Below are positions 18,587 to 64,000 of a DNA stretch of 64,000 nucleotides, piece after piece. The translations under genes and the position numbers were made by a program. The notes under the pieces were generated by a model. The model made no database searches, was not told the DNA's origin, and worked only from the letters and a program-made list of their open reading frames with translations. Each line of letters starts with the position of its first letter. Position 1 is the stretch's first letter. The stretch is from Herbaspirillum sp. CF444 (GTDB lineage Bacteria; Pseudomonadota; Gammaproteobacteria; Burkholderiales; Burkholderiaceae_D). The stretch covers positions 1-64,000 of the forward strand of contig NZ_AKJW01000011.1 in the NCBI RefSeq assembly GCF_000282135.1, in the 5' to 3' direction.

Positions 18587-21500
18587 ATGCTGGAACGTAT
18601 TGTGCCGGAGAACACTATCATTGCAGCGCTCGGAACACGGCTGCTCGCAGTGCCGGCGGTCGCGGCCGTCCATCTCGTCGCCGCAGCGAGGGAGGGGGAG
18701 GCGGGCGTTGGCCTGGTCGCCTATGTCGTCGGCGGTCAGCGCAAGGCTTTGGACGCCGCCATTGCAGACTCGGCGCATCCGGGGCCGGTGGCGCTGGTGC
18801 GCGTGCATGCTTTGCCGCGTCGACCCGACGGCAGCGTGGATGACGCTGCCCTGGCCGCATTGCCGGCCTGGGTCGAGGCGTCGTTGCCGCCGACCGCCGT
18901 CTATCGGCCGCTTGCGCCGCTGCGGCAGCGCATCCATCTGGCCGATCTCCTGCCGGACTATCCCTTGCTGACCTCCACCGTGCAGGAAACACCGCTCTCC
19001 AGGACGCCGGCGAACGGCGCTGCCGACAAGCCGGCGGTTTCCCGTCTCAGGCCGCTTCCCGCACAGCCGCGAATGCCCGCCAACCTGGCCGAAGCATTGG
19101 CGCGCGCGGCGCAGCATCCCGAACTCGGCATCGTCCATGTCGCCGCCGACATGCGTGAAACCCGGGTCAGTTATGCCCAATTGTTCGATCAGGCGCGCCG
19201 GATACTGGGCGGCTTGCGCGCACGCGGCGTTCGCAGCGGCGATGTGGTTCTGGTCGATGCGGCAGACAGCCGCAGCCTGCTGCCGCTGTTCTGGGCCTGT
19301 CTGCTCGGCGCCATTGTGCCGGCGCCGTTCAAGGTCGCTGCGGCGGCAGTCGGCGGCGCGCCGCTCAAGCGTCTGCGCGATTCCTGGGAAGTGCTGGGGC
19401 GGCCGCTCATTGCCGCCGATCCGGCCAGCTTGCAGGCGCTGGCGCCACTGGGAGCGGATGCGCTGAGCGGAATGACCTTGCTGGATGCGTCTGAACTCTG
19501 CCGCGCCGAAAGCGCAACCCCTTCGCCGGCAAGCGACCTGCGGGCCTTGTCCATGGTGTTCATGACCTCGGGCAGCACCGGTCTTCCCAAGGGCGTCATG
19601 CTGAGCCAGGCCAACGTGCTGGCGATGATCGGCGGCGTAGCCGAACGCGGCGCCGCGCTGACGCCCGGCGCGACGACCATGAACTGGATGCCGCTCGACC
19701 ATGTCGGCGGTCTGGGCTTCTTGTCGATCTTGCCGCTGGTGCTGGGCATGAACCAGATACAGGTCGATACCGCCACCGTGCTGGAAGCCCCCGTACGCTG
19801 GCTGGAACTGGCGCACCGGCATCGGGTCTGCATGGTCTGGACGCCCAACTTTGCGTTCGAGCTGTTGCAGCAGGCGGCTTCTGCGCCCGGCGCGGCGCGC
19901 GACTGGGACCTGTCCAACCTGCGCATGATCCTCAACGGCGGGGAGGCCGTTTCCGACAGCGTGCTGACGGCTTTTGCCGCGCGTTTCGCAGAGAACAAAT
20001 TACCCGACGGCGCGATCTGGCCGTCGTTCGGCATGACGGAAACCGTCAGCGCATTTTCCATGTCGCAGTGGATCCCGGGCAACGGCGAAGTGGTTTCCCT
20101 CGGCCTGCCGATCTGCGGCGCCGCGCATCGCATCGTCGACCAGCACGGCGAAGTGGTCCCGGAAGGCATCATCGGCGCCGTCGAGCTGTCCGGCGACTCC
20201 CTGTTCATGGGGTATTTCGGCCGCGACGACCTGACGGCCGAAGCGATGCACGGTAACTGGTTCCGCTCCGGCGACATGGGCCTCATCCGCAATGACGAGC
20301 TCTTCGTGGTCGGGCGCATCAAGGAAATGATCATCGTCAACGGCGCCAATTTCTACAGCAGCGAAATTGAAGAAGTCGTGGCGCAGACGGAGGGCGTAGA
20401 GCGCATCAGCATCGCGGCTGTTGGCGTGCGCGCGCCGGCTGCGCGGACGGATCAGCTGGCCTTGTTTTTCCATGTTTCCGGTGTTTCCGATATTGCCGAT
20501 GTGCGCGACGACGTCCTCAGGCGTGTCATGCAAGACATGCGCATGCGCCTGGGCAAGCAGCTGTCGCTGATGCCCGCGTATTTCATCCATGTACCGTCAG
20601 ATCGCCTGCCGCGCACCAATTCCGGCAAGGTCCAGCGGATCGAACTCAAGCGCCGGCTGGAAGCCGGTGTTTTCGATGCCGAGATCAAGCAAGCCGCCTG
20701 CCTGCTGGAGGCTGCCGGCACGATCCCCCACTGGTTCTCCGAACCGTTCTGGAAAGCTTGCCCGATAGCTGTCACGGCAGGCGAATCCGTCCACGGGCAA
20801 AGCATCGCCGTACTGGGAGACGCCTCCGCCGGCGACGCCGCGATCCGGGCGGCGCTGGCGCGGGCGGCCGGCGATATCGACTGGCGGCAGTTTGTGCTGG
20901 AAGAACAACCCGATCCTTTGCCTTCCCTGGGCCGTCTTTTCAATGCGATGGCGCAGCAGGGATTGCCCGACGTCATTCTGATATTGCCCGGCTGGGCGCG
21001 CTTGCCCAGGCTGCTGTCGTTATGCCAGGCGCTGGCGGCGACGGCGCGAGGTAGCCGGCCTGTAAGACTGATCGTATGCGGCGGCGCTGATGCCGCCGAG
21101 CATGCCGCGGCCGCCGCTTTTTTGCGGACGGCGGCAGCGGAAATCGACGGCGTGCATTGCATGCATATCCAGTTTTCAGGCAAAGACCTCGGCAGCGACG
21201 CCGGCATGATTCTCGGCGACCTGCGCCAGCCCACGCGCGAAACCGAACTGGCCTATATCGACGGCGCGCGCCACCTGCGGCGCTGGCGCAACGTCGAGTT
21301 GTCCAAGGCGGATCGCCCGGCATTGCGCTCCGGAGGCCTGCATCTGATCAGCGGCGGACTCGGCGGCGTCGGCTTGTTGCTGGCGCGGCATCTGCTCGAT
21401 CGTCACGACGCAAAATTGTTGATTGTCGGCCGTACCGAAGCCGCACAGCTCGACGCCGCGCGCGCGACAGCGCTGCGGGAGCTGGAACGCAGCGGCCGCG

Positions 21501-22579
21501 TGCTCTACGTCAGCGCCGATGTGGCCGACGCCGCAGCCTTGGGGGCCGCCGTGGCGCAGGCGCGTGCGCGCTGGCAGTGCGGACTGGACGGCGTCCTGCA
21601 TCTGGCAGGCGAGGGCCGTCAGACCGAATTGCGCCGCGAAACGGCGGCAACGCTGGCGCAGATGATGCATGCGAAGGTGGCCGGCAGCCTCGCCTTGCAG
21701 GCGCTGGCGGACGCGCATCCCGGTGCCCGGCTGGTCCTGGTCGGCTCCGTTGCCGGCATGGTCGCGGGCCGGCAGGATGCCGCCTATGCCGCCGCGAACG
21801 CCTGGCAGGCGGCGCTGGCGGAACAATTGGCGGCGTCCGGCAATACGCGCTGCCATTACCTGGGATTTTCGTCCTGGCGCCATACCGGCATGAGCAAGAA
21901 CGGCGCGCCGGTATCGACGGTGGAAGCGGCAGGGTATTTTTCGCTGGAACCGGAACATGCCGTCGCCAGCTTCGACATTGCGCTATCGGCTTCCCGGCCG
22001 GTGCTGGCGATCGGTCTCGACCTGCAGCATCCGCGCCACGCAGGCTTGCAAGATGCGGCCATTGCGGTGGATGAAGCGCTGGTCGTTGAAGCCGGAGGCG
22101 CTGCGCAAGGCGCCGTGATGTTGCGCGACCATTTCGGTCGCAGCCTTCCGGTCGCGGTGCTGGCGGTGGACGCGATACCGCGCAACGAAGCGGGCGGCGT
22201 CGATCGCGAACAGCTGACCCGGATAGCCGGCGGATTCCTGCAGCTGGGCCGGCCGGACAGCGAGTTCGAGCGCTACATGGCGCAGTTGTGGAAGCAGATC
22301 CTCGACCTGTCCATATGCGGCGTGCACGACGACTTTTTTGCGTTGGGCGGCAATTCGCTGCGCGCAGCGCAAATCGCAGCGGCCACGCGCGAACGCTTCC
22401 GTCTCAATGCGGCGATGCCCGATCTGCTGCAAAACCCGACCGTGGCAGGATTCTGCGCCCACGTGCAGCGCAGCGAAAGCAAGCCGGGCATCACCGAAGC
22501 CATTGCTCGCCGCTGGCTGGAAATAGAACAAATGACACCCGAACAAAAAGCGGCACGCGTTGCTGCGAGGACTGTATGA
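18587..22579 (+). CDS. PKS/NRPS loading protein: acyl-AMP ligase - ketoreductase - carrier protein
   Basis: A 1330-residue protein, ATG 18587 behind AGGGGAGCGGG. Residues 1-90 resemble the small C-terminal subdomain of adenylation enzymes but lack its catalytic Lys. The ligase core follows: MTSGSTGLPKG near 326, WMPLDHVGG near 366 (acyl-ligase style rather than the FDxS of amino acid domains), FGMTE near 481, RSGDMGL near 561, and NSGKVQRIEL with the catalytic Lys near 682. A ketoreductase comes next: SGGLGGVG near 922, Ser near 1053, and AYAAAN with catalytic Tyr and Asn near 1066-1070. The carrier protein has GGNSL with its phosphopantetheine Ser near 1257. It probably activates a carboxylic acid, possibly a keto acid reduced to a hydroxy acid, and passes it to the next protein. 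The stop overlaps the next ATG (ATGA). Confidence 0.85.
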   Translation: MLERIVPENTIIAALGTRLLAVPAVAAVHLVAAAREGEAGVGLVAYVVGGQRKALDAAIADSAHPGPVALVRVHALPRRPDGSVDDAALAALPAWVEASLPPTAVYRPLAPLRQRIHLADLLPDYPLLTSTVQETPLSRTPANGAADKPAVSRLRPLPAQPRMPANLAEALARAAQHPELGIVHVAADMRETRVSYAQLFDQARRILGGLRARGVRSGDVVLVDAADSRSLLPLFWACLLGAIVPAPFKVAAAAVGGAPLKRLRDSWEVLGRPLIAADPASLQALAPLGADALSGMTLLDASELCRAESATPSPASDLRALSMVFMTSGSTGLPKGVMLSQANVLAMIGGVAERGAALTPGATTMNWMPLDHVGGLGFLSILPLVLGMNQIQVDTATVLEAPVRWLELAHRHRVCMVWTPNFAFELLQQAASAPGAARDWDLSNLRMILNGGEAVSDSVLTAFAARFAENKLPDGAIWPSFGMTETVSAFSMSQWIPGNGEVVSLGLPICGAAHRIVDQHGEVVPEGIIGAVELSGDSLFMGYFGRDDLTAEAMHGNWFRSGDMGLIRNDELFVVGRIKEMIIVNGANFYSSEIEEVVAQTEGVERISIAAVGVRAPAARTDQLALFFHVSGVSDIADVRDDVLRRVMQDMRMRLGKQLSLMPAYFIHVPSDRLPRTNSGKVQRIELKRRLEAGVFDAEIKQAACLLEAAGTIPHWFSEPFWKACPIAVTAGESVHGQSIAVLGDASAGDAAIRAALARAAGDIDWRQFVLEEQPDPLPSLGRLFNAMAQQGLPDVILILPGWARLPRLLSLCQALAATARGSRPVRLIVCGGADAAEHAAAAAFLRTAAAEIDGVHCMHIQFSGKDLGSDAGMILGDLRQPTRETELAYIDGARHLRRWRNVELSKADRPALRSGGLHLISGGLGGVGLLLARHLLDRHDAKLLIVGRTEAAQLDAARATALRELERSGRVLYVSADVADAAALGAAVAQARARWQCGLDGVLHLAGEGRQTELRRETAATLAQMMHAKVAGSLALQALADAHPGARLVLVGSVAGMVAGRQDAAYAAANAWQAALAEQLAASGNTRCHYLGFSSWRHTGMSKNGAPVSTVEAAGYFSLEPEHAVASFDIALSASRPVLAIGLDLQHPRHAGLQDAAIAVDEALVVEAGGAAQGAVMLRDHFGRSLPVAVLAVDAIPRNEAGGVDREQLTRIAGGFLQLGRPDSEFERYMAQLWKQILDLSICGVHDDFFALGGNSLRAAQIAAATRERFRLNAAMPDLLQNPTVAGFCAHVQRSESKPGITEAIARRWLEIEQMTPEQKAARVAARTV

Positions 22580-25500
22580 CGACACCTGAAATGCCCTCGA
22601 TCGAGACTGGATTGGATGCGGCACTGGATGCAGCGCTGCTCGCCGACCTGCTGGCCGAGGATGGTTTCGAACTGCCGTCGGAAGAATCGGCAATCCCTCG
22701 CCGCGCGGCGTCTGCGCGCGTGCTGGCGACGCCTGCCCAGCAACGGCTGTGGACGGTTGAACGCATCGACGGCGTGACCGGCGAATTCAACCTGGGCATG
22801 GATATCCGTTTCAACGCCCCTATCAACGTCGCCGCGCTGGAACGTGCTCTGCTGGCGCTGCTGCAACGCCACGAGGGCTTGCGCGCCGGCTTTTCCGAGC
22901 ATGATGACGGCTCCATCGGGCAGACCTTCACGCAAGTCGACAGCCTCTCCCTGACGCAGCATGCCATGCCCGCGGCGTCATGGCCGGCTTTCTTGCGCGA
23001 GGCCGTTGCACAGCCTTTCGACCTCGCTGCCGACCTGCTGCTGCGGGCGCAACTCCTGCACGATGACGATGCCAAGTCTGAGTCTGAGTCTGAGGGCGGA
23101 GCGAGCGCTTTATTATTAACCTTCCATCACAGCATCATCGACATGTGGTCGGGACATCTGCTGCTGCGCGAACTGGTGATGCTGTATGCGCGCGAACTCG
23201 GCAAGGGCAATGAAACGGTGACGCTGCCCGAGCCGGTGCAGTTCGGCGACTATGCGACGTGGCTGCGCGAGCCGCAGCAAGCCGCCGCGCGCGAACAGTT
23301 GCACGGCTATTGGAAGACGCGGCTGGAGCAGTTGCCGACAGCGCTGGAATTGCCGTTTTCAGGACCGCGCGGACAAGCCGGCGCAACATTGTGCGAACGC
23401 ATCCCGGTGGTCTTGCCGGCACCGCTGACGGCAGCCGTCAAACGCTTTGCCGATACCGCCGGAACCACGCCGTTCGTGGTGATCCTGGCGGCGTTCCATG
23501 CCGTGCTGGCGCGCTATTCCGGCATGGACGACATCGCCGTCGGCGTTCCGGTCGTCAACCGTCCGCGGCAGCAGGAGCAGGGCATCGTCGGTTTCCTGAG
23601 CGAGACCATGGTGTCGCGCAATCTCTCGGAGCGCAGCCAAAGTTTCGGCACGTTGACCGAACAGGTGCGCGATCACATGCTGGAAGACTTGCGCCATCAG
23701 GGACTGCCGTTCGATGACGTCGTCAAGCTCGTCAATCCGGAGCGCCGCACAGGGCTTGCGCCGCTGTTCCAGGCCATGCTGGTGTTCCAGACGATGCCGC
23801 CGCTGCAGGCGCAAGCAGGCGCGATATGCGCGCACGCCGCAACCGTCCCGCTTCCCGCCGCCCGGGCGGACCTGCTCCTGGAACTGGAAGCCGGCGCGGA
23901 ACACATCGAGGGTGGACTGGAGTATCGCCGCAACTTCATCGATCCGCAGATCGCCGCCGCGATGGCGGCATCGGTTGAAGTCGTGCTGGAAGCCGCGCTG
24001 GCCGATCCGCAACTGCCATTGTCGCAACTGCCGCTTCAACGCAGCGACGCGGCGCGCGAGATGCTGGCACGCCTCAATCCACCGTTGCCATCCTTGCCGG
24101 GAGCCGCGCCGCGCACACTGAGCGCCTGGTTTACCGAACAGGCTGCAAGGACGCCGGATGCCGTGGCGCTGATCGATGCGGAAGGCGGGGGCGAAACTAC
24201 CTATGCCGAACTCGACCGTCGTTCCGCCGCGCTGGCCGCGCATCTGGCGCAACTGGGCGTCGTTGCCGAAACGCCGGTCGCCATCTGCCTGCCTCGCTCG
24301 GCGGATCTGGCCGTGGCCATCCTGGCGACCCTGCGTGCGGGCGGCGCCTTCGTCCCGATGGATCCGAATTTCCCCGCCGAGCGCCTGCGCTACATGCTCG
24401 ACAGCAGCGGTGCGACGGTGTTGATGACGACAGGCGCGCCGGACTGGCTTGCCGCCGACGTTCCCGCGGCACAGCAGCCCAGGCTGGTCGATCCTTCACG
24501 GGCATTTCCGCAGGCATCCGCGCCGCCGGATCTCAACGGTCCCGACAGCCTTTTGTACATCCTCTACACCTCCGGCTCGACCGGTCGCCCGAAAGCGGTG
24601 ATGGGCCTGCACCGGGGCGCGGTGAACCGCATCGCCTGGATGCTGGAGCGCTATCCGTTCGAACCGCGCGATCGCTATTGCCAGAAAACCACGCCGACTT
24701 TTGTCGACTTCGTCTGGGAGCTGTTCGGTCCGCTGCTGGGCGGCGTGCCGTCCGTGATCTTGTCGGCGGCCCAGGTGCGCGATCCGCGGGCGCTGGCGTC
24801 GGCGATGCAGCAGCACGGGGTCACGCGCCTGACGCTGGTGCCATCGCTGCTGAAATCGCTGCTCGATCATGTCGCCGACGTCGGCAACGTCCTGGGTGGG
24901 TTGCGTCACTGCATCTGCAGCAGCGAGGCTTTTCCGGGCGACCTGGCGCGCCGCTTCCTGAGCCTGTTGCCGGATTGCCGCCTGCTCAATCTCTACGGAT
25001 CGTCGGAGGCATCGGCGGATTCGACCTGCTACGACGTCGACACCGCAGAAGGACCGCAGGTGCAGATAGGCAGACCGATCCCGGGCAATCTGCTGGCGAT
25101 TCTCGATCCGGCCGGTAACGTGTTGCCGGTGGGCGCAGCAGGAGAAATCATGATCGGCGGCATCGGCCTGGCGCGGGGGTATCTCAGTCTCAATGGCGGC
25201 GAGCCGCGCTTTGTCACCTTGCCCGCAGACGTCGCCGGCGGTCGCGCGTTCCGTTCGGGAGACCTCGGGCGCTGGCGTCCCGATGGCGGCATCGATTACC
25301 TGGGGCGACTGGATCGTCAGGTGAAGATTCGCGGTGTGCGCATCGATCCCGAGGAAGTCCGCGTCGCGCTGCGCAGGTGCCCCGGTGTAGCGGATGCCGT
25401 CGTCGTGGCGCGCGAAGTCAGTACTGACGGCAGCGGCGAACTGATACTGATGGCGTATGTCGTCGCGAAAGAATCGGTGGAGCCGGCGTTGCGGCGATGC

Positions 25501-28500
25501 CTCCAGGACATCTTGCCGATGGCCTTGCAGCCGTCCCGTTATGTCTTCATGCCGGACTTGCCGCTCAACTCCAACGGCAAAATCGATTTCCTGGCCTTGC
25601 CCGCGCCCGACGGAGAAGTAGCGGCGCAAGCGCCAGAGACAGAAAGCGCGATGACGCTGGAAGAGAACTTGCTGGCGGATATCTGGCGGCAAGTGATCGG
25701 CAGCCGCCCGCAACATCCGCAAGCCAATTTCTTCCAGTCGGGCGGCCATTCGCTGAGCGCCATACGGCTGGTCGCTGCGCTGGAAAAAAACCTGGACGTG
25801 CGCCTGCCGGTGACGGCCGTCTTTGACGCGCCGAGCTTGCGCGCCATGGCATTGGAAGTGCGTCGCGCGCAGCGCGGCGCGGGACTGCCGGAGGTGGTGG
25901 CCGGCGGCCCGCACCGGCGCGCGCGCGCCTCGTTCAATCAGGAGCGTCTCTGGCTCATCGAACAATCCGGACAACAGCGCGGCGCCTACAACCAGGCAGT
26001 GGTCTACCGCCTGCGCGGCCAGTTGGACGTCGAACGCCTGGAAACCGCATTCAGGCGCGTGATGCAACGCCACGAAGCGCTGCGCACGCGGCTGGTCCTT
26101 GCCGATGGCCTGCTGTGGCAGGAGGTGCAAGAGGTCCACGCCTCGCCTGAATTCGCTCTCGAAAGGATCGCTGCAGACGACGGCCGGCAGCAGATTGCAC
26201 CGCTGCTGCAGGAATTTTCAGAACGATTTTTCTCGCTGGCGGAAGACCTGCCGCTGCGTGCCGGCCTGATCGGGCTCGGACCCACTGAACACCTGCTGGC
26301 GATCGTGGCGCATCACACCGCCTTCGACGGCGGCTCCGGACGCGTGATTGTCGAAGAACTGGGGCAAGCCTACAGCGGTGTGCTGGATGCCGCTCCCGCA
26401 GCCTTGCAGCAAATCGATTTCTCCGAATGGCAGCGCCATTGCGACGAGCAGGGCGCTTTCGAGGCGCAGCGCAATTACTGGCGCGACCAGCTTGCCGGCG
26501 CGCCTGCCGTGCTCGGACTGGCCTTGAGCCGAATGCCGGAACAACGCGACTTCCGCCTTGGCCGCGTGCCGGTCGCGCTTGGCCGGGAGCGCAGCGAACG
26601 CCTGCAACAGGCCGCCGATGACGCCGGACTGAGCGTCTTCGCGCTGTTGCTCGGGGTGTGGGGATTGACGCTGGCGCGTTTCGGCGGCGAGCAGGAAGTC
26701 GTGGTCGGCATTCCCGTGGCCGGTCGCAGCCGCACCGGGCTGGACGGCATCGTCGGCTTCCTTGCCAATACGCTGCCGATGCGCCTGGATTGCAGCGCCG
26801 CCAATCTGGCGGAGTTCGGCCGCCGCGTCCAGCAACGCGTCGCCGAAGGACTGCAACACCAGGATATTTCTTTCAGCCGGATCGTCGAAGCCGCCGGCGT
26901 GGAGCGCATTCCCCAGCGGCCGCCTTTGCTGCAGGCGATGTTCGTGCTGGCCGATCTGCGCCAGTGGCAATTGCAACTGGACGCCATCGACGCGGTGGCG
27001 GAACCCTTGTCGGCGCCATTGGCGCGCACGGATCTCAGCATGGCTTTGCATCAGGATGCGCAAGGCATCGCGGGCGAGCTGGAATATGCCGCCGACGTTA
27101 TTGCACCGGCGCTGGCCGGGCGCATCGCCGAGGGTTTCGCACACTTGCTGGAGGCCTTGCTGGCGCAGCCCGACGTGCCGCCGCTGTCGCACTCGTTGCT
27201 GGATGCGCCGGCGCGCGCCTTGCTGGCGCAGTTCGGTCAGGCGCGCACCGTGTTGCCGCCGGCAAGCGAGCCGCTGCGGCTGCACGACTTGCTGCGCGCC
27301 GGCGTACAGCGCAACGGCGACGCCGACGCCGCAGCGCTGGCGACCCCCGAGGGCGAGCTCAGCTACCGGCAACTGGACCGGCTATCCGGCGACTTTGCTC
27401 GGCGTCTGCGTACCGCAGGTATCAATCCGGGCGACCGCATCGCGCTGATCGGCGAGCGTTCCATCGGCCTGATCGCTGCACTGCTGGGCATTTCAAAAGC
27501 CGGTTGCGTGTTCGTGCCCATCGATCCGACTTATCCGTCGGTGCGTATCGAGCAGATGCTGCAGGATGCCGGCGTCGCGCTGGTGGCCGGCGACCGTCCG
27601 GCAGACTGGAACGAGGCGCAATGGATGCGCTTGCCGGTATTGCAGGACTTGTCTTGCGCACCTGAACAGGACGAATCGAAGCATTCTCACGGCGAGTTCG
27701 ACAAGGACTTCGCGGCAACCGCCTGCATCATTTTCACGTCCGGCTCCACCGGCCGTCCCAAAGGCGTGGCGCTGGCGCATCATGCCTTGTGCCGCCTTGC
27801 GCAGAGCGCCGTGACCGAATTTTCCGTGACGCAGGAAAGCCGCATCCTGCAACTGGCCGCCTTCGGTTTCGATGTGGCGGTTTCGGATATCGTGTTTGCC
27901 CTGGCCGCCGGCGCCTGCCTGTGCCTGGCGCCGCGCGAACGTCTGCTGCCCGGTTCGCCGCTGCTGCAGACGCTGGGCGCGATGCATATCAGTCATTTGC
28001 AAATCCCGGCGTCGTTGCTGGCGGCGATGCCGCTTGCGCCTTTGCCCAGCCTGCGCACGCTGATCGTCGGGGGAGAGTTGTGTCCCGCTGCAGTGGCGTC
28101 GCAATGGCAGCAAGGCCGCGATCTGTTCATCGCCTACGGTCCGACCGAAACCACGGTGACCGTGACCGCCGGCCGCTATGCGGGTGCCGACGCGCCTTTG
28201 CAGATCGGCCGCCCGCTGGGCGATGCGCGCATCTATGTGCTGGACGAGCAGGGCGCACCGGCGCCGATCGGCGTCATCGGTGAATTGTGCATCGGCGGAC
28301 CGGGGGTGAGCATCGGCTACCTCAATAATCCGGCGCTGACGCAAGAACGCTTCCGGCCGGATCCGTTTTCCGACGATCCACAAGCGCGCCTGTATCGCAG
28401 CGGCGACCGCGCGCGCTGGCGCGAAGACGGCTCGCTGGACTTCCTCGGTCGCAGCGACCGCGAGTTCAAACTGCGCGGGTTCCGCATTGCCCCGGCCGAA

Positions 28501-31500
28501 ATCGAAGCCGCCTTGTCGCAGCAGGCCGGCGTGACTCAGGCACTGGCGATGCTGCGCCCCGACAGCGCCGGACAGCGCCGCCTGGTGGCCTATGTCGTCG
28601 GCGCCGGCACGGATGCCGCGACGATCCGCAGCGAATTGCGGCGCAGCTTGCCGTCCTTCATGGTGCCCGATTTCATCGCGATTCTGGACAGCATGCCGCT
28701 CACCGGCAACGGCAAAATCGATGTGAACGCCTTGCCGTTGCCGGTGTTTGAGCGAGAGGGCGTGGCATCGGGCAATACGGAGAGCCGCGAGGGTCGCGAT
28801 TGCCTGGCGCGTGTCGCCGGCCTGTGGCGGCAGGTGCTGAACCTCAAGGATATCGCCCCGGACGCCAATTTTTTCGACGTCGGCGGCCATTCGCTGCTGC
28901 TGGTCCGTTTGTACGACCTGCTGACGGTCGAGTTCGGTGCGGCGGCGTCGATCAGCGATCTGTTCCGTTTTCCGACCATCCGCAGCCTCGCGGCGCATTT
29001 GTCCGGTCAGGGAGACATCCGGGAAACAGGAAAAACGGTGCATGCGCCGCTGCTTGCCCAGGCGGACATCGCCGTCATCGGCATGGCATGCCGTTTCCCG
29101 GGGGCGCCGGATGTCGACGCCTTCTGGCAACTGCTGGTCGAAGGCCGCGAAGGCATCAGCCGCCACGATCCGGCATCGCTGGCAGAGGCGGGACGCGCTG
29201 CCGACGTGCAGCAACAAGCCAACTTCGTTGCCGCCGGCGGCGTGATCGGGCAGGCCGATTGTTTCGATGCCGACTTTTTCGGGCTCGGGCCGCGCGACGC
29301 CGTCACGCTGGATCCGCAACATCGCGTTGCGCTGGAATGCGCCTGGCATGCGCTGGAACATGGCGGCTATGCAGCGATGGAAGCCCGGGGCGATGTCGAC
29401 GTTGGCGTCTTCGTGGGTGTCGGCGTGAATACCTATTTGCAGGGGCAGTTGTTTGGCGGCGGCCCGATGCCCGAAAGCGCGGACACATATCACGCGATGT
29501 CCGGCAACGACAAGGATTTCGGCGCCACCCGGATTGCCTACCATCTGGACCTCAAGGGACCGGCGCTGGCCGTGCAGACGGCATGCTCGTCATCGCTGGC
29601 GGCGCTCGACATGGCTTGCCGTTCGCTGCGCAGCGGCGCTGCGGGCATGGCCCTGGCCGGCGGCGTGGCCATACGTTTCCCGCAAGGCAGCGGGTATTTC
29701 CATGAGCCGGGCATGATCCTGTCGCCCGACGGACATTGCAAACCGTTTTCCGCCGATGCACGCGGCACCGTCCCCAGCGGCGGCGTCGGCATGGTGCTGC
29801 TCAAGCCGCTGGCGCAGGCGCAAGCCGATGGCGACAACGTGCTGGCGGTGATCCGCGGCAGCGCCGTCAACAACGATGGCGGGCGCAAGGTCGGCTACGC
29901 CGCTCCCGGCGTGGACGGCCAGGCGGCGGTGATTGCCTCGGCACTGAAGCAGGCCGGACTGGAGCCGGGCGACATCGACTATGTCGAAGCACACGGCACC
30001 GGCACCGAGCTGGGCGATCCGGTGGAAATTGCCGCCTTGACGCGTGTCTTCGGCGGGCGGCAACGGCCGCTGGCGCTGGGTTCGGTCAAGAGCAACATCG
30101 GCCACGCCGACGCGGCAGCCGGCATCGCCGGCCTGATCAAGACGATTCTGGCCCTGCAGCACGGCGTGCTGCCGCCGAGCCTGCATTTCTCGTCACCCAA
30201 TCCGCATGTCGATTTCACGGCGGCGTCGATCGGCGTGGTCGGCTCCGTGCAAGCGTGGCCCGCGCAGGAAAGCGGCCATCCGCGCCGCGCCGGCGTCAGC
30301 GCCTTCGGCATCGGCGGCACCAACGTGCACGTGGTGCTGGAACAGGCGCCTGCGCGTTTGCAGACCGCCTCCGCAACGATATCGCCGCCGGTGTTGCCGC
30401 CGGTTTTACAGGTATTGCCGCTCTCGGCGCGCACGCCGGCAAGCCTGCGCAGCAGCATGCTGGCGCTCGCCGACGTCTTGCAAGGCCGGCCGCAATTGGC
30501 ATTGCGCGATGTCGCCTTCACCTTGCAGCAGGGACGCGCCGCCTTCGGCTGTCGCCACGCCCTGGTTGCATCCAGCAACGAAGAAGCCATGGTCGCGCTG
30601 CGTCTGGCGGCAGAACAGTCCGGCACTGAGCCGGTGGCCACGATCAAAGGAGCGGCGCGGCTTGCCTTCCTGTTCCCGGGGCAGGGCAGCCAATATCCGC
30701 GCATGGCGCAGGCGCTGTACGAGAGCGACGCCGGCTATCGATCCTGGTTCGACCGCTGCGCCGTCGCGCTGTTGCCGCATGTGGAGCAAGACATCCGCAC
30801 CGTGCTGTATGGCGTCGCGGCCGACGATCCCGCTGCCGTCGCGGCACTCGGGCAGACCGCGCTGGCGCAGCCGGTGCTGTTCTCGGTGATGTACGCGCTG
30901 GCGCGCAGCCTGGAGGCGCGCGGCGTCGAGGCCGTCGCCATGCTGGGTCATAGCCTCGGCGAATACGTCGCGGCATGCCTGGCCGGCGTGTTCGAGCTGG
31001 ATGATGCCCTGGCGCTGGTCGCCATGCGCGGCCGCCTGATGCAGGCCTTGCCCGGCGGCGCGATGCTGGCGGTGCAGGCGGACGAAGCGCAGGCGCATGG
31101 GCTGATGCGTACGTTGATGCGCGATTGCGGCGACGCGATCGGCCTGGCTGCCGTCAATGGCCCCGGACAGTGCGTGTTGTCCGGCGCAACGGACGCCATC
31201 GATGAATTGCAAGCACGGCTGAAAGAAATCAATGTGCCGGCCGTGCGCCTCGACACCTCGCACGCCTTCCACTCGGCAGCCATGGATCCGGTGCTGCCGG
31301 ATTTTGTCGCCCAGTTCGATCGCATCACCCTGATGCCGCCGCAACGGCGCTTCATTTCGAATGTCACCGGCACCTGGATCAGCGATGCGGATGCCGTCGA
31401 TCCCGCCTATTGGGCGCGCCATTTGCGCCAGGCAGTGCGCTTCGGCGACGGCCTCGACACCTTGCAGCGCGACGGCGTCGACCTGCTGCTCGAAGTCGGC

Positions 31501-44397: not shown

Positions 44398-44640
44398 AGC
44401 TCGTAATCAGTTTTTTTGTTGGAAATTTGTTGAATATATTGGCTGTATACCGAACAATTTCCATGGTTTACGTATATTGTTCATGCGTTGTCCGTGGTTG
44501 TCCGTGTATTGGTCTTGTGTTCGACCGGTTTCCCGAAAGTGGCGCTCTGTTGTCCGATGCGGCAGAGTCTTGTTCCCCAGCCTTGAGCTACCCAAAGACC
44601 TCATGCGCTTCAGGGCGTTTAATTTATGAAGGAGATTTCT

Positions 44641-45183: not shown

Positions 45184-45216
45184 TCCAGGCCTGAACGACC
45201 GGCAGGAAACTGCATG

Positions 45217-45247
45217 CCGGAAGTGAATGCACTTCCGGTATTTTTAT
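45217..45247 (+). terminator. rho-independent terminator
   Basis: A perfect 9-bp stem CCGGAAGTG / CACTTCCGG with an AATG loop is followed by TATTTTTAT, 34 bases after the DUF697 gene stop. This is the clearest terminator in the window. It closes the megasynthase-mbtH-DUF697 transcript, so the thioesterase and exporter genes downstream either rely on read-through or have their own promoter. Confidence 0.85.
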
Positions 45248-45312
45248 GCGCCCAGCTTCGGCGGCTGCCATGCCAAGGCTGGGCATGCACCCCGTGGAAT
45301 GACGATTTTCTC

Positions 45313-46113: not shown

Positions 46114-46126
46114 GCGGAGCTGTCTC

Positions 46127-46696: not shown

Positions 46697-46711
46697 CAAG
46701 GAGCTATCATC

Positions 46712-46909
46712 ATGCCTATCGCATTTTTAATCTATGTCGTGTTGTGCCTGCTGGTTGCATTCATCGCGCGCAAGAGCAAGCTGGGATCGCTGCGCACACT
46801 CGTGGTGGCGTTTTTGCTGACGCCGCTGGTGGCGTTTATCTATGTGTTGTTGTTTGCCTCCATCGACGACAAGAGCAAAGCGGTTTCCAACGGTTCGGCA
46901 GAGCGATGA
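46712..46909 (+). CDS. tiny two-helix membrane protein
   Basis: A 65-residue protein with AAGGAG before ATG 46712. Two hydrophobic helices (AFLIYVVLCLLVAFIA and TLVVAFLLTPLVAFIYVLLF) are joined by a short basic turn (RKSKLGSLR), followed by a hydrophilic tail. No family is recognised. It ends four bases before the ABC exporter start, so it is likely translated together with it and may be an accessory subunit of the exporter or a membrane-protection peptide; both are inference from position. Confidence 0.65.
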   Translation: MPIAFLIYVVLCLLVAFIARKSKLGSLRTLVVAFLLTPLVAFIYVLLFASIDDKSKAVSNGSAER

Positions 46910-46913
46910 TCTG

Positions 46914-49783: not shown

Positions 49784-49801
49784 GCTGCCTGCGAGGTTGA
49801 G

Positions 49802-50254
49802 TCAGGCTGTTGCCGGAGGCAATGCCGGCGCGGCCGAAGAGCTGCTTTCGCGCGGCGAAGGCAGGTCGATGCGGCCGTTGGCGATCAGTCGCTCCAGCAG
49901 CAGTTCTCCCAGGACGTAGGTATACGCGGCGCTCAGGCCGGCCGAGGGCAGGGTGCCGGTAAAATAGCTCGCAAACGACAGGTAGCGTAGCGCCGTGGCT
50001 CTGACGCTGCCAGGCGACAAACCGCCAAGGGCGCCGGTGACAATGCCGCGGGCCGCAGTGCGGTTGAATTCGGCGCCGTAAAGCACGCAGAGTTTCTTCG
50101 CCATCCGGACCTGGACCGTGAGCGCCGTGGTCATGTCCAGCAAGGGCACGGGAATGACCATGCTGGCGCCGGCCAGGGACGTATGCCGCAGGATGACATC
50201 CTGCGCGTGCAAGCGACGTAGCGCGGCTCGGGTGAGCGGGGCGGGCGCCTTCAT
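49802..50254 (-). CDS. second DUF697/YcjF-type small membrane protein
   Basis: A 150-residue protein, ATG 50254 with AGGAGAAAAT directly upstream. Its core MVIPVPLLDMTTALTVQ then VRMAKKLCVLYG is clearly related in layout to ILPVPGLDLIALTGVQ and the LYG of the 44641-45183 protein, followed by two weakly hydrophobic segments. The C-terminus is Ser/Pro-rich. The 18-base gap to the prohibitin-like gene is convergent and holds no hairpin. Whether it belongs to the left or right part of the locus is unclear: base composition is high like region 3, but the strand is that of region 4. Confidence 0.68.
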   Translation of the reverse strand: MKAPAPLTRAALRRLHAQDVILRHTSLAGASMVIPVPLLDMTTALTVQVRMAKKLCVLYGAEFNRTAARGIVTGALGGLSPGSVRATALRYLSFASYFTGTLPSAGLSAAYTYVLGELLLERLIANGRIDLPSPRESSSSAAPALPPATA

Positions 50255-50331
50255 ATTTTCTCCTGGAGAATCCGGCGAGAAGTTAATAAAAAATGTGCAA
50301 TGGGGCGCCGGGATATCGGACACCTACCCAA

Positions 50332-51465
50332 CTATCGGAACCGTTTGACCAGTTGCTGCAAATACGGCAACGAATCCCGAACCGCATCGTAGTCGATACC
50401 GAAGTCAACCAGGCAGGCGATATCGTTGACGCCTGCCTGGATGGCCTTGTCAACGATCGCGCTGGTTTGTTCGACATTGCCAAACATGGCAGCCGTCCCA
50501 AAATAGCGTTGGAATGCATAGTCGACGATTTTCTCTTTCTCTTCGCCGGAGAGCGAGCGACCATCCCGCATACCGGCGGTTTCTTTTTCCAGGCCCGCCG
50601 CTAAATGAGGGCCTAATGAGCTTTTGATATATTCTTTGAACGGCTTTTCTACTGCCGACATGATCCAGTCTTTGTCCGGATGGACGAAGGTGTGGAGCAT
50701 GAGCGAAAATATTCCGCTATCCGCATCAAATCCGGCGCCGGATCGCGCCTCCCTATACAGCTTCACTTTTTTGGCGATGCCGTCAAGGCTGATGCCTTGA
50801 AGCATGGTGAAGATGTTATATCCCAACTTGCCCGCCGCAATGTAGGTGTCGTCACTGGTGCCGAGCAGCCATACGTTCAATTCCTTTTGATGCGGGCGGG
50901 GATACACGGTGATGGGGTAGTCTTTACCGTCCGCACCACTGAACGTCACGGATTCGCCGCGCCAGAGTTTTTTGATGACGGGAATCTGATCCAGGCATAT
51001 CTGCTTCCGATTTTCGTAATTTTGCGGCGCGAAAATAAAATCCGCCTTGTTCCAACCCGATCCGAATCCCAGATCTACGCGTCCACCTGACAAGATGTCG
51101 TTCATTGCCCACCATTCAACCACCTCGGCAGGGTGGTGAAGCGGCAAAGAAACGCCTGCGGTCCGGAATCGAATACGCTTCGTTTGGGGAATGAGATGCG
51201 ATGCCATAATCGCGGAATTGGCGTAAATCGAACCGAACTCGGAAAAGTGTCGCTCCGGAATATACACGGCACTAAAACCTTCGCGATCTCCGAACAAGGT
51301 GATGTCGCGCATGAAGTCGTATTTTTCGCGATCCGACACATCTTTTCGAACATCTGAAAAGAAGAGGAAACTGAATTCGATTTTCGACACCGGCCGATTC
51401 ATGGCGGGTGCCGCCGAGGTACTCGGGAGTGTTGGCATACCCAGGATTTCTTCAATACTTGGCAC
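50332..51465 (-). CDS. MupA/Atu3671-type FMN-dependent luciferase-like monooxygenase
   Basis: A 377-residue flavoenzyme with a GTG start at 51465 behind GTGGAG. After a 25-residue leader the barrel begins with IEFSFLFFSD and keeps the features of this luciferase-like subfamily: ERHFSEFGSIYANSAIMAS, LPLHHPAEVVEWWAMND and LGFGSGWNKADF. Members from PKS/NRPS clusters hydroxylate carrier-bound intermediates, some at the beta position (MupA in mupirocin). It is the last gene of the - strand run NRPS - mbtH - P-type ATPase - monooxygenase and is therefore a likely tailoring enzyme of the right-hand assembly line. A 136-base gap separates it from the ATPase gene. Confidence 0.9.
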   Translation of the reverse strand: MPSIEEILGMPTLPSTSAAPAMNRPVSKIEFSFLFFSDVRKDVSDREKYDFMRDITLFGDREGFSAVYIPERHFSEFGSIYANSAIMASHLIPQTKRIRFRTAGVSLPLHHPAEVVEWWAMNDILSGGRVDLGFGSGWNKADFIFAPQNYENRKQICLDQIPVIKKLWRGESVTFSGADGKDYPITVYPRPHQKELNVWLLGTSDDTYIAAGKLGYNIFTMLQGISLDGIAKKVKLYREARSGAGFDADSGIFSLMLHTFVHPDKDWIMSAVEKPFKEYIKSSLGPHLAAGLEKETAGMRDGRSLSGEEKEKIVDYAFQRYFGTAAMFGNVEQTSAIVDKAIQAGVNDIACLVDFGIDYDAVRDSLPYLQQLVKRFR

Positions 51466-51601
51466 GATAGCTCCACAAATAAGAGTTGCTGATATTGTCT
51501 TTCCGGCTAAGGTATCCGGATAAATCGAAGTGCGATGGAAAGACTCCTTCCCATGAAAGAGGGACTTTGCTCACACTTCGACTTGTGCAGGCACGACTGA
51601 A

Positions 51602-53644
51602 TCAAGTCTGGCGTGAAGGTGCGTCATCGCCTGGTTTGTTTTTGTCTGAATTAAATACCGCCATCGGGTCTCTCGCGGCAACAAAGAAGAAGCCCGTATT
51701 CAGCAACAGCGAACCGAGGATGCCGAAGCGGGGGTAAAACACGGAGACCAGATTGATGCCCGATGGAATGACGGTCAAGCGGAGTCGGCGTTTGAGTTCC
51801 GCGTCCAGGCGTTGCGCAATGTCAACGAGTTTGGGGACATTGGCGAGATGTCCATCCATCAGCAAGACTTCCGCGACGTCCACGGCGATGCTTGAGGCGC
51901 CCTTCAGCGAAATCGATACATTGGCGGTTTTCATGGCAATGGAATCGTTGATTCCATCGCCGATGAAGCAGACTGAACGGCCTTCCGACTGGAGTTGTTT
52001 GACGATGTCGGCTTTTCCTTCAGGCAAAACACCGAAAAAATAGTCGTCGACTCCCAGTTGCTCGGCCAGACGCCGGGTCGGCTCTTCATGATCGCCGGAC
52101 AGAATGGCGATATGCTTGATTCCCAGGCGACGCAATCCCTGTATGACGCTGGCGGCTTCGTCGCGGATATGAGCCTGCAGTTCGATCGCGCCGTTGATCT
52201 TGTCGTCCGCACTGATGAACACCAGGGAATTGCCCGCACTGTGAGCGTCTTCCTGGAGTTCGGAAATTTTCTTGGGGATCTTGATTCCTTCGTCTTTCAA
52301 GAAACGCAAACTGCCCACTCTTATTGTTTTCCCATCAAAGTTCACTTTGACGCCAAAGCCCAGTTGATAGTCGGAAGTCTCCACTTCCTCGATGGTGATG
52401 TCTTCCTGTCTGGCCTTTTCTGTGATTGCCAGAGCGATGGGGTGCGACAGCCGACGCTCCGCCGCCGCCGCCCAGGTGAGAATCTGCCGCTCGCTATTCT
52501 GCTCAAAGGCGACAATGCGCTTCACCTCCGGGATATCGTCGGTCAAGGTGCCTGTCTTGTCGAAAACAACGGTGTCAACCGCATACAAGCTCTCCAGGGC
52601 GCGCCCGTCTTTCACCAAGATGCCTGCGCGTGAAGCTTCCGTGACGTACTCCAGGGTCGCCAGCGGCGCCAGCAGACGAATACGGTAGCCGATGTGGCTG
52701 TAGATGAAGATGGCGGCTGAACTGGGTCCCAGGGTGAGAAAGATGGGCAAGCTGATCAGGAAGGTGGGGGTAGTCGCCTTTTCTGCCCACTGCTCACCTT
52801 TCAACTGGATTTTCGATTTGAAATCCATCGATTGCTGGAGCGCCTTGACGATTTTTGCCGATACCGTTTCTTCCCCCGATTTATCCACCTTGATCAGGAC
52901 GCGACCGGATAGCACCAGGGTATTGGCAAAGACATATTCGCCTTCCGATTTTTCCGCGGGCTGCGATTCACCCGTCAGCGCGCGCTGGTCGATAGCAGCA
53001 ATGCCTTGTTGAATATAGCCGTCGACGGGAATGATTTCACCGCCTTTCACCACCAGCACATCGCCTGCCTTGAGGCTGGAAATCGGCACTTCGACTTCAG
53101 TTCCGTCGCACATGATCCAGACGGTTCCCGGCAATTGGTCAAATACATCAGTGAGCAATTTTTGGGTGCTGTTTTTGACCCGGCCGACCAACTCATATCC
53201 TGAGTACACCAGCCACATATTGATGGCGGAGGTGATGTGTTGACCCAGCCCGACGGTGATCACATTGGCAAAGAAAAACAGTAAATCGACGGTGATTTTT
53301 TTCTCCGTGCGGGCGTTTTGCCAGATATCTCTCAGGTAGGGAATGGAGGCGAAAAATAAAGTGGCAATGCCCACGATCCGGAACGGGGGAATGACGGTAC
53401 CCACAACCAGAAAAGCGGCTGAATACAGGCTCAGTCTTTTGTTCCGCTGACTCTCTTCAATGAATGCCTGCAACGGATCTTTTGCTTGCACGGGGACCAG
53501 CGCGCCGGTTTGTTGGGACGCGGATTCGGAAGAGTTTTTTGAGTGAGGCTTGGTATCGACCTTAAGTTCAGGAAAAAGCTCTTCCAAAAAACTCAGACCG
53601 GCATAGCCAGCTCCAGCTGCGATAGCTCCAAGGCGAGAAAACAT
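51602..53644 (-). CDS. P1B-like P-type ATPase lacking the CPC metal motif
   Basis: A 680-residue P-type ATPase, ATG 53644 with GGAG eight bases upstream. The engine is intact: TGES at 224-227, the phosphorylated Asp in DKTGT (D362), the P1B-specific SHP at 400-402 and GDGIND at 562-567. The helix that in heavy-metal pumps carries Cys-Pro-Cys reads LLAPLATL (about 324-331), so both ligand cysteines are gone, and no CxxC metal-binding domain precedes it. It is therefore unlikely to be an ordinary Cu/Zn/Cd pump. Being inside an NRPS operon, between mbtH and a tailoring monooxygenase, a role in product transport, cation-product complexes or resistance is conceivable. The region is less GC-rich than region 3. 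Confidence 0.9.
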   Translation of the reverse strand: MFSRLGAIAAGAGYAGLSFLEELFPELKVDTKPHSKNSSESASQQTGALVPVQAKDPLQAFIEESQRNKRLSLYSAAFLVVGTVIPPFRIVGIATLFFASIPYLRDIWQNARTEKKITVDLLFFFANVITVGLGQHITSAINMWLVYSGYELVGRVKNSTQKLLTDVFDQLPGTVWIMCDGTEVEVPISSLKAGDVLVVKGGEIIPVDGYIQQGIAAIDQRALTGESQPAEKSEGEYVFANTLVLSGRVLIKVDKSGEETVSAKIVKALQQSMDFKSKIQLKGEQWAEKATTPTFLISLPIFLTLGPSSAAIFIYSHIGYRIRLLAPLATLEYVTEASRAGILVKDGRALESLYAVDTVVFDKTGTLTDDIPEVKRIVAFEQNSERQILTWAAAAERRLSHPIALAITEKARQEDITIEEVETSDYQLGFGVKVNFDGKTIRVGSLRFLKDEGIKIPKKISELQEDAHSAGNSLVFISADDKINGAIELQAHIRDEAASVIQGLRRLGIKHIAILSGDHEEPTRRLAEQLGVDDYFFGVLPEGKADIVKQLQSEGRSVCFIGDGINDSIAMKTANVSISLKGASSIAVDVAEVLLMDGHLANVPKLVDIAQRLDAELKRRLRLTVIPSGINLVSVFYPRFGILGSLLLNTGFFFVAARDPMAVFNSDKNKPGDDAPSRQT

Positions 53645-53791
53645 AATGCCAGCTCCAATATCAACTCAAGTTCGCCGGTCTGCTCATTTTTTCCATATTG
53701 GAAAATGAGGTCCGAAAATAAAAAACGATCATGCTGCAGCTGCGCACAATATAACGCACTGCGCAGCCTGCACAAGCAGATTTGCGCCGCT

Positions 53792-54031
53792 CTATTGGGG
53801 CAAGGGAGTCATGTCGGTCCAGACGGTTTCAATATATGCAAGGCATCGCTGCTTGCTGGTCGCCGAGCTGCCGCCATCATTTTTTTCATTGAAGCCCCGG
53901 AGCCAGTCGTCGGGAATCGCGACCTCATGCCAGCCACCCGGTAAAGCCCGCTCGACAAACCAGATCGAGTATTGACCGCGCTGGTTGACGACCACTCTGT
54001 AGGCGACATCGTTGGTTGATTGTTCAGACAT
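53792..54031 (-). CDS. second MbtH-like NRPS chaperone
   Basis: A 79-residue protein starting at the Met of MSEQSTND, 17 bases after the NRPS stop; a longer frame would overlap the NRPS. The core is VVNQRGQYSIWFVERALPGGW and the end ETVWTDMTP, so the WP of the signature has become WF and the final WTDxRP is altered. Between them is an extended loop (about FNEKNDGGSSATSK) not found in typical members. The three conserved Trp are kept. It should serve the adjacent NRPS, whose two A domains are of the Ser and Thr-like type. Confidence 0.88.
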   Translation of the reverse strand: MSEQSTNDVAYRVVVNQRGQYSIWFVERALPGGWHEVAIPDDWLRGFNEKNDGGSSATSKQRCLAYIETVWTDMTPLPQ

Positions 54032-54048
54032 GGTTTTTCCTTGGCTGT

Positions 54049-57000
54049 TTATAGAGGTTCCGCTACCGTGCTTGCCTGGGTAAAGCAATCACGCAAGTAG
54101 TGCGCGAGACTTTGTACATTCGGGTTGGCCAGCATGCTGGTGTGACTGCCCGGAGTGATATGGATTGTCACCTGTTTGGCGAATCGATCCCAGCCCCATT
54201 CAGGCTCATTCTGGATGGGCCAATACTGTTTCTCGGTGTCGCCTTTGACGAGCACCAATTGATCCAGCTCTACGGCGTTTTGCGGCTGGTAATCTGCGCT
54301 GACATTGGTCCGGTACACGTTCACGATCCCCAGGAATTGCTTGGTTTCAATCTCCGGAGGGAGCCAATTGGCGGCGATGAGAATATTCTTGACGTACTCC
54401 AGCTGCTCCGGCTCGGACATGGTGGAAAGCAACTCTTCGGTGATGCCTAAAGGTCGCTCCAGATATTCCTCCATCACTTTGCCGAGTTCAGGCAGAAAGC
54501 GCGTGCCCTCCCAGTCTTGCGCTATCGGCACCATGTCGGGATGAGGGGCGGTCGTGCCCAGGACAACCACCAGAGCAACCTCGCGTCCACGCCGTATCAG
54601 CTGTTGTGCAAGTTCGAATGCGATTTTTCCGCCAAACGAATGACCACCCAGCAAGAAGGGCCCTTCCGGATGTATTTTCAAAACTTCCTCGAGCCAGTAC
54701 GCGGCCATGTCTTTGACGTCCTCCAGCGGATCGGTTTCACCATCCAGACCGACCGCTTGCAAGCCATAGAATGGTTGATCGTCGCCTAATTGCCGCGCCA
54801 GCTCATACAGATAGACCACGCTCCCTCCGGCGCCCGGGAAGCAGAAGAAGGGCAGCTTGCTGCCGTTTGCATTGACCGACACCAGGGAGGTGAAATAACG
54901 ATCGCCGTTTTGTCCTTTGAGCAGGTTCGACAGTTTCTCGACGGTGGCGTTTTGGAACAACGAGGCCAGGGGCAGTTTCTGATTGAATTTCTGTGCGATA
55001 CGGGACATCAGCGTCACGGCAACCAGCGAATGTCCTCCCAGGTCAAAGAAATTGTCGGTCATGCCTATCGGCTTGACCTGCAGGAGATCTTCCCAGACCT
55101 GACACATTCTCAGTTCAAGTCCGTCGCGTGGGGCGACATATTCCACTTCCTTGACGCGCTGGTATTTGTCTTTCGAGATTTTCGCAAGCAGCGCGCGGTC
55201 CACTTTGCCATTTCGCGTCAATGGAATCGTGTCCAGGACCACATAGGCTTGCGGCACCATGTGCACGGGCAGCCGTTGTCCCGCAAAGCGCCGGATCGCA
55301 TTGATATCGATCAGTTCCGGCGTGTCTGCGCACACAAAGGCCAGCAATTGTTTTTCTTCGCTGGCCGCGCCGACCACGATGACCACGCTTTCGATCACGT
55401 TTTCCGCTTTCAGCAGCACCGCCTCGATTTCCTCCAGCTCGATTCTGAAACCGCGAATCTTGACTTGATTATCGATGCGTCCGAGATACTCGATTTTTCC
55501 GTCGGGCAAAAATCTTCCCAGGTCGCCCGATTTGTACAAACGCGGGTTTTGCTCCCGGTTTTCGAGACCGTCCGGGTAGGCAATAAAGCGTTGCGCCGTA
55601 AGCTCCGGGCGATTCAAGTAGCCGCGTGCAAGGCCGGCGCCGGCGATATGCATTTCGCCAACCGCACCAAGGGGGACGGGCTTGAGCGACTGATCCAGGA
55701 TATGCACCTGCAAATCGGCAATGGGGACGCCGATATTGCTGACGGGGTGTTCAAGGTCGCTGAGCGTGATGGGATGGCAGGTGACATGCACCGTCGTTTC
55801 AGTGATGCCATACATATTGACAAGCTGCGGTTCCTGGTCGCCATGGCGTTCTAGCCAGGGGCGCAGTTTTTCCAGATCCAGCGCTTCGCCGCCGAAGATC
55901 ACGTAGCGCAGCGCGGTTTCACCTGTCTGATCAAGTTCGTTGTCGGCATTCATCAGCTGTCTGAATGCCGAAGGCGTTTGACTGAGCACGGTGACTTTTT
56001 GCCGTATCAGCAATTGGTAAAAATCAAGCGGAGAGCGGCTGGTCATGTAAGGGACGATCACGAGGCGTGCGCCATGCACGAAGGCGCCCCAGATTTCCCA
56101 GATCGAGAAATCAAACGCGTAGGAATGAAACAGTGTCCACACATCGTGCTCGTTGAATTCAAACCACGGCCGGGTGGCGCTGAACAAGCGGCTGACGTTG
56201 GCGTGCGTGACCAACACGCCTTTCGGCGTTCCGGTCGATCCGGAGGTGTAAATCACGTAGGCGAGGTGTTCCGGATCGATGTGCCAATCCGGATTTTGTT
56301 CATTGGTCGCCTGAATGTCCTGATCGATGAGGAGCAGGCTTGCCGTCTCTGCGCCTGTGCCGAATTTGGACGTGAGCGGTCCGGTTGTCACAATGATCGC
56401 CAATGCCGCATCCCTGACCATGAATTGCAGGCTGGAATCAGGATAGGCTGGGTCCAGCGGGACATAGGCGCCCCCCGCCTTCAGGACCGCGAGGATGGCA
56501 ACGATCATGTCGGTCGATCGTTCGAGGCAAATGCCAACCAAAAAGTCCGGCCCCACGCCCATGGCGCGGAGTTGATGCGCCAGGCGATTGGCTCGTCGAT
56601 TCAGTTGATCGTAAGTGATCGCTTCATCTTCCAGGACCAGTGCAATGGACTCCGGTGCTTTCTGAACCGCGTGCTCAAAAATCGCAGGCAGGCTTTGAAC
56701 ATGAGCCGGCACGCTTGGAAGCGCAGCGCGCCAGGTGGCCAGAAGTTCCTTTTCGCCCAAGGTCTGAATGGCATGAGAATGGACGGGCGCGTCGGGCGCA
56801 TCCAGTATGGCATCCACCAGCAGCAGGAATTGCTCGCCAAATCTTTGCATCGTCGATTCTTTGAACAAGTCGCTGTTGTATTCCAGGATGCATTCCATGC
56901 CCTTGTGATTTTCTTCCATGGAAAACAGAATATCGAACTTGGAAGTCTTATTGTGCTGCATGAGCGGGGTGGCTTGCAGGCCGGGAAGCTCCAATAATTC

Positions 57001-64000: not shown

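Follow-up and report, generated by a model that had tools for sequence, protein, structure and literature searches.

Two large biosynthetic assembly lines run toward each other in the genome of Herbaspirillum sp. CF444, and the question raised by this locus is whether they form one composite pathway with a single product or two clusters that meet tail to tail. The earlier note on this DNA had put forward both readings, with a meeting point at 49.8 kb in the second. We analyzed the window (bases 1–64000 of the 121,545-base contig C11, from a genome of 5.59 Mb in 125 contigs) and extended the analysis to the end of the contig, positions above 64000 being contig positions. Occurrence was surveyed in 34 genomes of the genus and in 195 genomes of the family (each set including this genome, with 11 members of the latter being other species of the genus), family-wide matches being taken up to an E-value of 1e-3. 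Our analysis indicated that the locus almost certainly contains two independent clusters, which meet tail to tail at ~50.25–50.33 kb and not at the position given earlier.

Arrangement and boundary of the two lines

The convergent arrangement was confirmed, with the plus-strand line spanning 18.5–50.3 kb and the minus-strand line running from position 85947 down to 50332 (Table 1). The plus-strand line starts with a loading module (A-KR-T in protein p1). The minus-strand line, the beginning of which had been suspected to lie outside the window, does start beyond it, and its last protein, m3, ends in C-A-T-C-A-T-TE. An AT-family profile bore out the proposed contrast between the cis-AT logic of the plus-strand line and the AT-less KS of the minus-strand line, and each line was found to have its own MbtH-like protein, as had been noticed. 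Two MbtH genes and differing base composition are expected of two clusters of different origin.

The three plus-strand synthetases had a GC content of 65.6%, four plus-strand accessory genes one of 60.7%, and the three minus-strand synthetases one of 53.6%, in agreement with the AT-richer DNA that the earlier note had seen from about 50.3 kb. Maximum-likelihood analysis of 44–56 kb placed the single best GC change-point at 50,249, where the content falls from 60.4% to 53.6% (log-likelihood gain, 27.7), and nucleotide synteny with four relatives stopped at 50,216–50,267. The codon usage of the minus-strand line was 0.120 away from that of the plus-strand line and 0.121–0.122 away from those of the two flanks; the plus-strand line and the flanks were mutually 0.055–0.072 apart. 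The plus-strand accessory genes (n = 4) were intermediate, at 0.081 from the plus-strand line, 0.091–0.095 from the flanks, and 0.106 from the minus-strand line. The change in composition thus falls on a cluster boundary and not within one cluster.

With regard to a mobile-element edge, there were no tRNA genes in the window or in loci L005 and L009, and no exact repeats of at least 14 bases, direct or inverted, were found between 49.9–50.6 kb and 85.9–96.0 kb. The longest repeat in this comparison was one of 13 bases in each orientation, with 0.24 direct ones expected. The right edge of the minus-strand line may lie at approximately 89–90 kb. The contig at 90.0–93.6 and 95.6–117.2 kb resembled, by eye, a type VI secretion locus with possible effector genes before it, for which one weak Peptidase_M91 match below the cut-off was obtained.

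Table 1. Features of the two convergent assembly lines. Positions above 64000 are contig positions; identities refer to the four relatives.
Feature	Position	Strand	Evidence
p1, KasA-like loading protein, A-KR-T	18497..22579	+	Pfam, domain map; 78–89% identical in 4 relatives
p2, KasB-like, C-A-T-C-A-T-KS-AT-KR-T	22288..33555	+	Pfam, domain map, motifs; 80–90% identical in 4 relatives
p3, KasC-like, TubC_N docking, C-A-T-E-C-A-T-E-C	33513..44135	+	Pfam, motifs; 81–83% in 4 relatives
p3 C-terminal condensation domain	42921..43829	+	Residues 3137–3439 matched, HHALIDG at 3251
MbtH-like protein of plus-strand line	44128..44397	+	Pfam PF03621
DUF697 protein	44626..45183	+	Pfam; 78–86% identical in 4/4 relatives
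Free-standing type II thioesterase	45214..46113	+	Pfam PF00975; 75–80% identical in 4/4 relatives
Cyclic-peptide export ABC transporter, KasE-like	46842..48566	+	NCBIfam TIGR01194, 317 bits (cut-off, 286); 91–94% in 4/4 relatives
SPFH/Band 7 protein	48563..49783	+	Pfam; 83–85% identical in 4/4 relatives
Second DUF697 protein, at the end of the conserved plus-strand block	49802..50323	-	Pfam; 73–80% in 4/4 relatives
Cluster boundary	50249..50332		GC change-point; end of synteny; end of first minus-strand line gene (50332)
MupA/Atu3671-family luciferase-like monooxygenase	50332..51465	-	NCBIfam TIGR04020, over cut-off
Heavy-metal-type P-type ATPase	51602..53644	-	NCBIfam TIGR01525, over cut-off
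MbtH-like protein of minus-strand line	53792..54088	-	Pfam PF03621
m3, KS-T-C-T-C-A(Ser-like)-T-C-A(Thr-like)-T-TE	54049..65325 (window part to 64000)	-	Profiles, domain map, motifs
m2, KS-T-Cy-Cy-A(Cys-like)-T-Ox-KS-T-KS-KR-T	65247..79778	-	Profiles, domain map, motifs
m1 loading gene, weak C-domain end and A-T-KS-flavin monooxygenase	79780..85947	-	Profiles, domain map
PPTase of minus-strand line	86535..87344 (upstream of m1)		Profiles
Sigma-54-type regulator	87929..88972 (upstream of m1)		Membership in minus-strand line by position

The plus-strand line as a kasumigamide-type cluster

Domain order, protein sizes, and the transporter identified the plus-strand line as a kasumigamide-type cluster, the Kas proteins being compared by description. 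The described proteins are KasA (A-KR-PCP, 1381 aa), KasB (C-A-PCP-C-A-PCP-KS-AT-KR-ACP, 3694 aa), and KasC (C-A-PCP-E-C-A-PCP-E-C, 3560 aa), with a cyclic-peptide transporter in the same cluster, and clusters of this kind comprise kasA–I of 'Entotheonella', makasA–D of Microcystis, dakas of Delftia acidovorans, and hkasA–H of Herbaspirillum sp. CF444, the last with a GC content of 64.7% (PMC5061366). The domain orders of p1, p2, and p3 (1360, 3755, and 3540 aa) were identical to those of KasA, KasB, and KasC, respectively, and the plus-strand line shares with the kasumigamide clusters the absence of a TE, the terminal C domain, and the cyclic-peptide transporter; its predicted substrates may likewise be compatible. 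Some differences were also found. No KasD-like (CmlA-like) hydroxylase was seen beside the line, and the corresponding profile, PF18456, used without a positive control, matched in none of five genomes. The type II thioesterase, DUF697, and Band 7 genes of the plus-strand line are not among kasA–I as described (PMC5061366).

The plus-strand line had been said to contain no release domain. This was correct for a TE in cis, but a terminal C domain and a free-standing type II thioesterase are present. As far as the family has been described, its clusters lack a TE and the terminal C domain has been proposed to act instead (PMC5061366), so that the missing TE of the plus-strand line can be regarded as a family trait. 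The last C domain of p3 is likely the release domain and provides the line with a plausible release function of its own.

The A-domain codes were GLLWLGSSA in p1, VDWTISLAD and DVSQIGAVT in p2, and DVENVGGIT and DAWTVAGVA in p3. With a ruler fragment and code meanings that we take to be correct, these were compatible with phenylpyruvate, beta-alanine, tryptophan, arginine, and phenylalanine or phenylserine; the first code of p2 is presumably beta-alanine-like, and the second stands at the tryptophan position of kasumigamide. We propose that p1 would activate phenylpyruvate and reduce it to phenyllactate on the carrier, and that p2 would add beta-alanine, tryptophan, and then one malonyl unit, which would be ketoreduced. 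p3 would contribute D-Arg and one further residue, D-Phe or phenylserine, its terminal C domain would release the chain, and the ABC transporter would export the product.

A piece of p1 gave strong matches (E ≤ 1e-30) in 5 of the 34 genus genomes, i.e., this genome and the four relatives G204 (88%), G201 (90%), G195 (87%), and G152 (78%). Nucleotide synteny in these relatives extended from ~18.1–18.6 kb to 50.22–50.27 kb, and the genes of the line, up to and including the second DUF697 gene, were kept at 73–94% identity, MbtH excepted. At the left end, the homology of p1 began at residue 23–24 (~18566) in three of the four relatives; at the right end, the likely start of the second DUF697 protein was near 50254. 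The two DUF697 genes, which lie on opposite strands, bracket the accessory genes of the plus-strand line both here and in all four relatives. The MbtH of the plus-strand line was matched in the region of one of the four relatives (57%) despite synthetases that are 78–90% identical, showing that the presence of MbtH varies within the kasumigamide-type family. In the family-wide survey, where true relatives were told apart from generic hits by score, identity, and length only, the p1 piece matched in 92 of the 195 genomes through generic domains, and a plasmid search with p1 yielded nothing closer than remote A/KR proteins, the best of them at 30% over 81%.

No orthologs of the minus-strand line were found to the right of the plus-strand line in the 22.7–31.3 kb examined per relative. 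The best matches there were generic, at 42% or less, and consisted of a different NRPS in G201 (23–42%), a P-type ATPase in G204 (27%), and the PPTases of G152, G195, and G201 (27–28%). In G201, a large NRPS encoded on the other strand (66.5–80 kb of the joined and reverse-complemented locus L056) likewise runs toward the kasumigamide-type line and is 40% identical to m3 over its best-matching part. The right side of the kasumigamide-type line may be a gathering place for NRPS clusters.

The minus-strand line and its predicted product

The minus-strand line is complete from m1 to the TE. Reading the contig to the right of 64000, which had been set beforehand as a test, revealed an A-T loading module at the start of the line, with the A-domain code DVSNMAIIY. 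m2 contains two Cy motifs (DPIIADGAS and DLLVADGAC), a nitroreductase-family oxidase domain after A-T, and an A-domain code (DLFNFSLVW) that we take to be of the Cys type; the features of a thiazole module, namely, Cy DxxxxD motifs, a Cys-type code, and an oxidase domain, were therefore all found in this protein. In m3, residues 802–1344 form a C-T pair with no A domain, located between KS-T and the Ser-like module. In the P-type ATPase, the usual metal-site motif, which we take to be CPx, was seemingly absent by eye.

Among the five KS domains of the minus-strand line, the full Cys-His-His set with HGTGT occurred only in the third KS of m2. The KS of m1 retained the His within an altered motif, and the His was absent from the first and second KS of m2 (EAQGTAN and EAAAPGA) and from the KS of m3 (EAQGMGN). 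KS domains devoid of this His probably hand the chain on without extending it. With these KSs non-extending, the line would require just one or two malonyl units, and this may account for the absence of a dedicated trans-AT: m1, m2, and m3 gave no PF00698 match, and no dedicated free-standing trans-AT was found near the line. The whole genome contained three AT-family matches: one is the cis-AT of p2, one a 311-aa protein on contig C68 that stands free, and one a malonate decarboxylase subunit on contig C121. The last is the acyltransferase subunit of a malonate decarboxylase operon, read from its residues, at ~2.7–10.4 kb of C121 (locus L037).

Residues 54–2002 of m1 were colinear with a gene of Rhizobium paknamense (41%) and residues 129–2055 with a gene of a Verrucomicrobia MAG (43%); plasmid genes of Rhizobium lusitanum (44%) and Agrobacterium vitis (40%) matched over 86%, and a Xanthomonas cannabis match covered residues 766–2052 (37%). 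R. paknamense additionally has, after its m1 homolog, a match to the KS-T region with which m2 begins. Five C-domain queries detected no C domain in the Rhizobium (L045) or Xanthomonas (L046) locus (E, 1e-5) and a full one upstream of the m1 homolog in the Verrucomicrobia MAG (L047). Contig 99 of this MAG (OFTM167) carries, in the order of the minus-strand line, the m1 homolog and then matches to KS-T, to the two Cy regions (as C-type regions), to A-T (56%), and to Ox; the first half of the minus-strand line recurs there. Unlike the minus-strand line, the MAG contig has an additional KS region among these and continues downstream with many more PKS modules. No other genome was found to contain the whole minus-strand line; what was seen elsewhere was its first part. 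Within the genus, the luciferase-like monooxygenase had some match in all 34 genomes, owing to its common family, and a strong match in this genome alone (E, 7e-260), the next best being at E = 8e-14 and 25%. Similarly, the flavin-oxygenase piece of m1 matched in 194 of the 195 family genomes, with the best match elsewhere (E, 3e-31; 32%) among apparently generic proteins. The minus-strand line is probably a horizontally acquired trans-AT PKS-NRPS.

In necroxime biosynthesis, a glycine primer is used and the oxygenase, DH, and MT domains of the first modules install an oxime; in the same source, Allorhizobium and Rhizobium are mentioned as having related clusters (PMC7318616). m1 shares the A-T-KS-flavin oxygenase order of the lobatamide, necroxime, and oximidine oxime starters and is ~40–44% identical to the rhizobial genes; from that mention, we infer that the rhizobial relatives of m1 belong to lobatamide-type clusters. 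The oxime modules of necroxime, however, include DH and MT domains, neither of which was matched in m1 or m2, and the oxime assignment is therefore one by analogy. The minus-strand line further differs from the lobatamide/necroxime type in that it proceeds to Cy-Cy-A(Cys-like)-T-Ox and Ser/Thr-like NRPS modules. The largimycins of the leinamycin family, likened here by description only, are also PKS-NRPS products with an oxime and an azole, although their oxime is attributed to the oxidoreductase LrgO and their azole is an oxazole (PMC13200230). In the open-access literature searched, we found no description of an oxime-type loader combined with a thiazole-type module and a terminal NRPS part.

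We propose that m1 would load an amino acid, by analogy glycine, the nitrogen of which would be oxidized by the KS-linked flavin monooxygenase, probably toward an oxime. m2 would then introduce a thiazole derived from cysteine as well as one malonyl unit, which would be ketoreduced; Ser and Thr would be added by m3, and the TE would release the product. The minus-strand line would thus probably make an undescribed compound, different from that of the plus-strand line.

Relationship between the two clusters

In all four relatives, a PPTase gene directly follows the second DUF697 gene and is itself followed by metA, encoding homoserine O-succinyltransferase (Pfam assignments on the G152 copies). 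The minus-strand line occupies this place in the present genome. A query with the G152 PPTase found here only the PPTase of the minus-strand line (29%), and metA, present in all four relatives (72–100%), was not found. Since the minus-strand line lies at the place of both genes and both are missing, it probably replaced the PPTase–metA segment. PPTase-family matches numbered three in this genome (that of the minus-strand line, a 169-aa open frame on contig C68, and a 264-aa one on contig C59), and each relative also had three.

The two clusters may be coupled through shared activation, with the PPTase of the minus-strand line modifying the carriers of both lines after loss of the PPTase belonging to the plus-strand line. 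The exchange of the neighboring PPTase, the result of the G152 query, and the concomitant absence of metA are in favor of such coupling, but the 264-aa PPTase-family gene remains, the relatives likewise have a third one, and it may serve both lines; we regard shared activation as possible but less likely than not. The more extensive proposal, that the minus-strand line makes an undescribed N-oxidized (oxime-type) thiazole-Ser-Thr hybrid and has also displaced the native PPTase, leaving the native line dependent on a foreign one, is rather doubtful.

An ancestral presence of the AT-rich block, followed by its loss from the relatives, is highly improbable. Occurrence in a single genome does not polarize the change, but the retention of PPTase and metA at that spot in four relatives together with the absence of both from this genome, a codon usage apart from that of the other contig genes tested, and a strong monooxygenase match in 1 of the 34 genus genomes argue for a gain by this strain.

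A single composite pathway, with the chain handed from the plus-strand to the minus-strand line or in reverse, was not supported and is scarcely credible: the lines do adjoin, the plus-strand line has no cis TE, and the search for a trans-AT dedicated to the minus-strand line was negative, but the plus-strand line exists without the minus-strand line in four other genomes of the genus and fits a cluster type with a known stand-alone product, and the minus-strand line begins with its own A-T loader and terminates in its own TE. For a handover from p3 to m1, the start of m1 matched the C-terminal end of a condensation domain at only 21 bits (cut-off, 30.6), without HHxxxDG, and the five C-domain queries did not find the missing half in 85.6–89.5 kb (best E, 0.056). 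Without a complete C domain at the start of m1, the minus-strand line has no evident route by which a chain could pass to it from p3. The earlier note had named as refuting a composite either a loading module on the minus-strand line together with a release enzyme for the plus-strand line, or homologous clusters occurring separately; each of these was observed, the release function being a plausible one.

The reading of two independent clusters removes the supposed unusual hybrid pathway from this locus. Gene content, domain order, motifs, the boundary, and the occurrence of the plus-strand line on its own were observed directly; substrates, the oxime, the thiazole, products, release chemistry, and a gain of the minus-strand line as opposed to a loss are inferred from homology. 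The plus-strand line is of a kind already known and takes its place in a published family, and the minus-strand line is a trans-AT PKS-NRPS variant whose loading module is of the oxime type. The locus is of interest for the product of the minus-strand line and for the PPTase exchange rather than for a composite pathway. If shared activation were true, two assembly lines would be coupled by activation and not by chain transfer. The PPTase exchange at the cluster edge provides a simple test of the dependence of neighboring lines on each other's activating enzyme.
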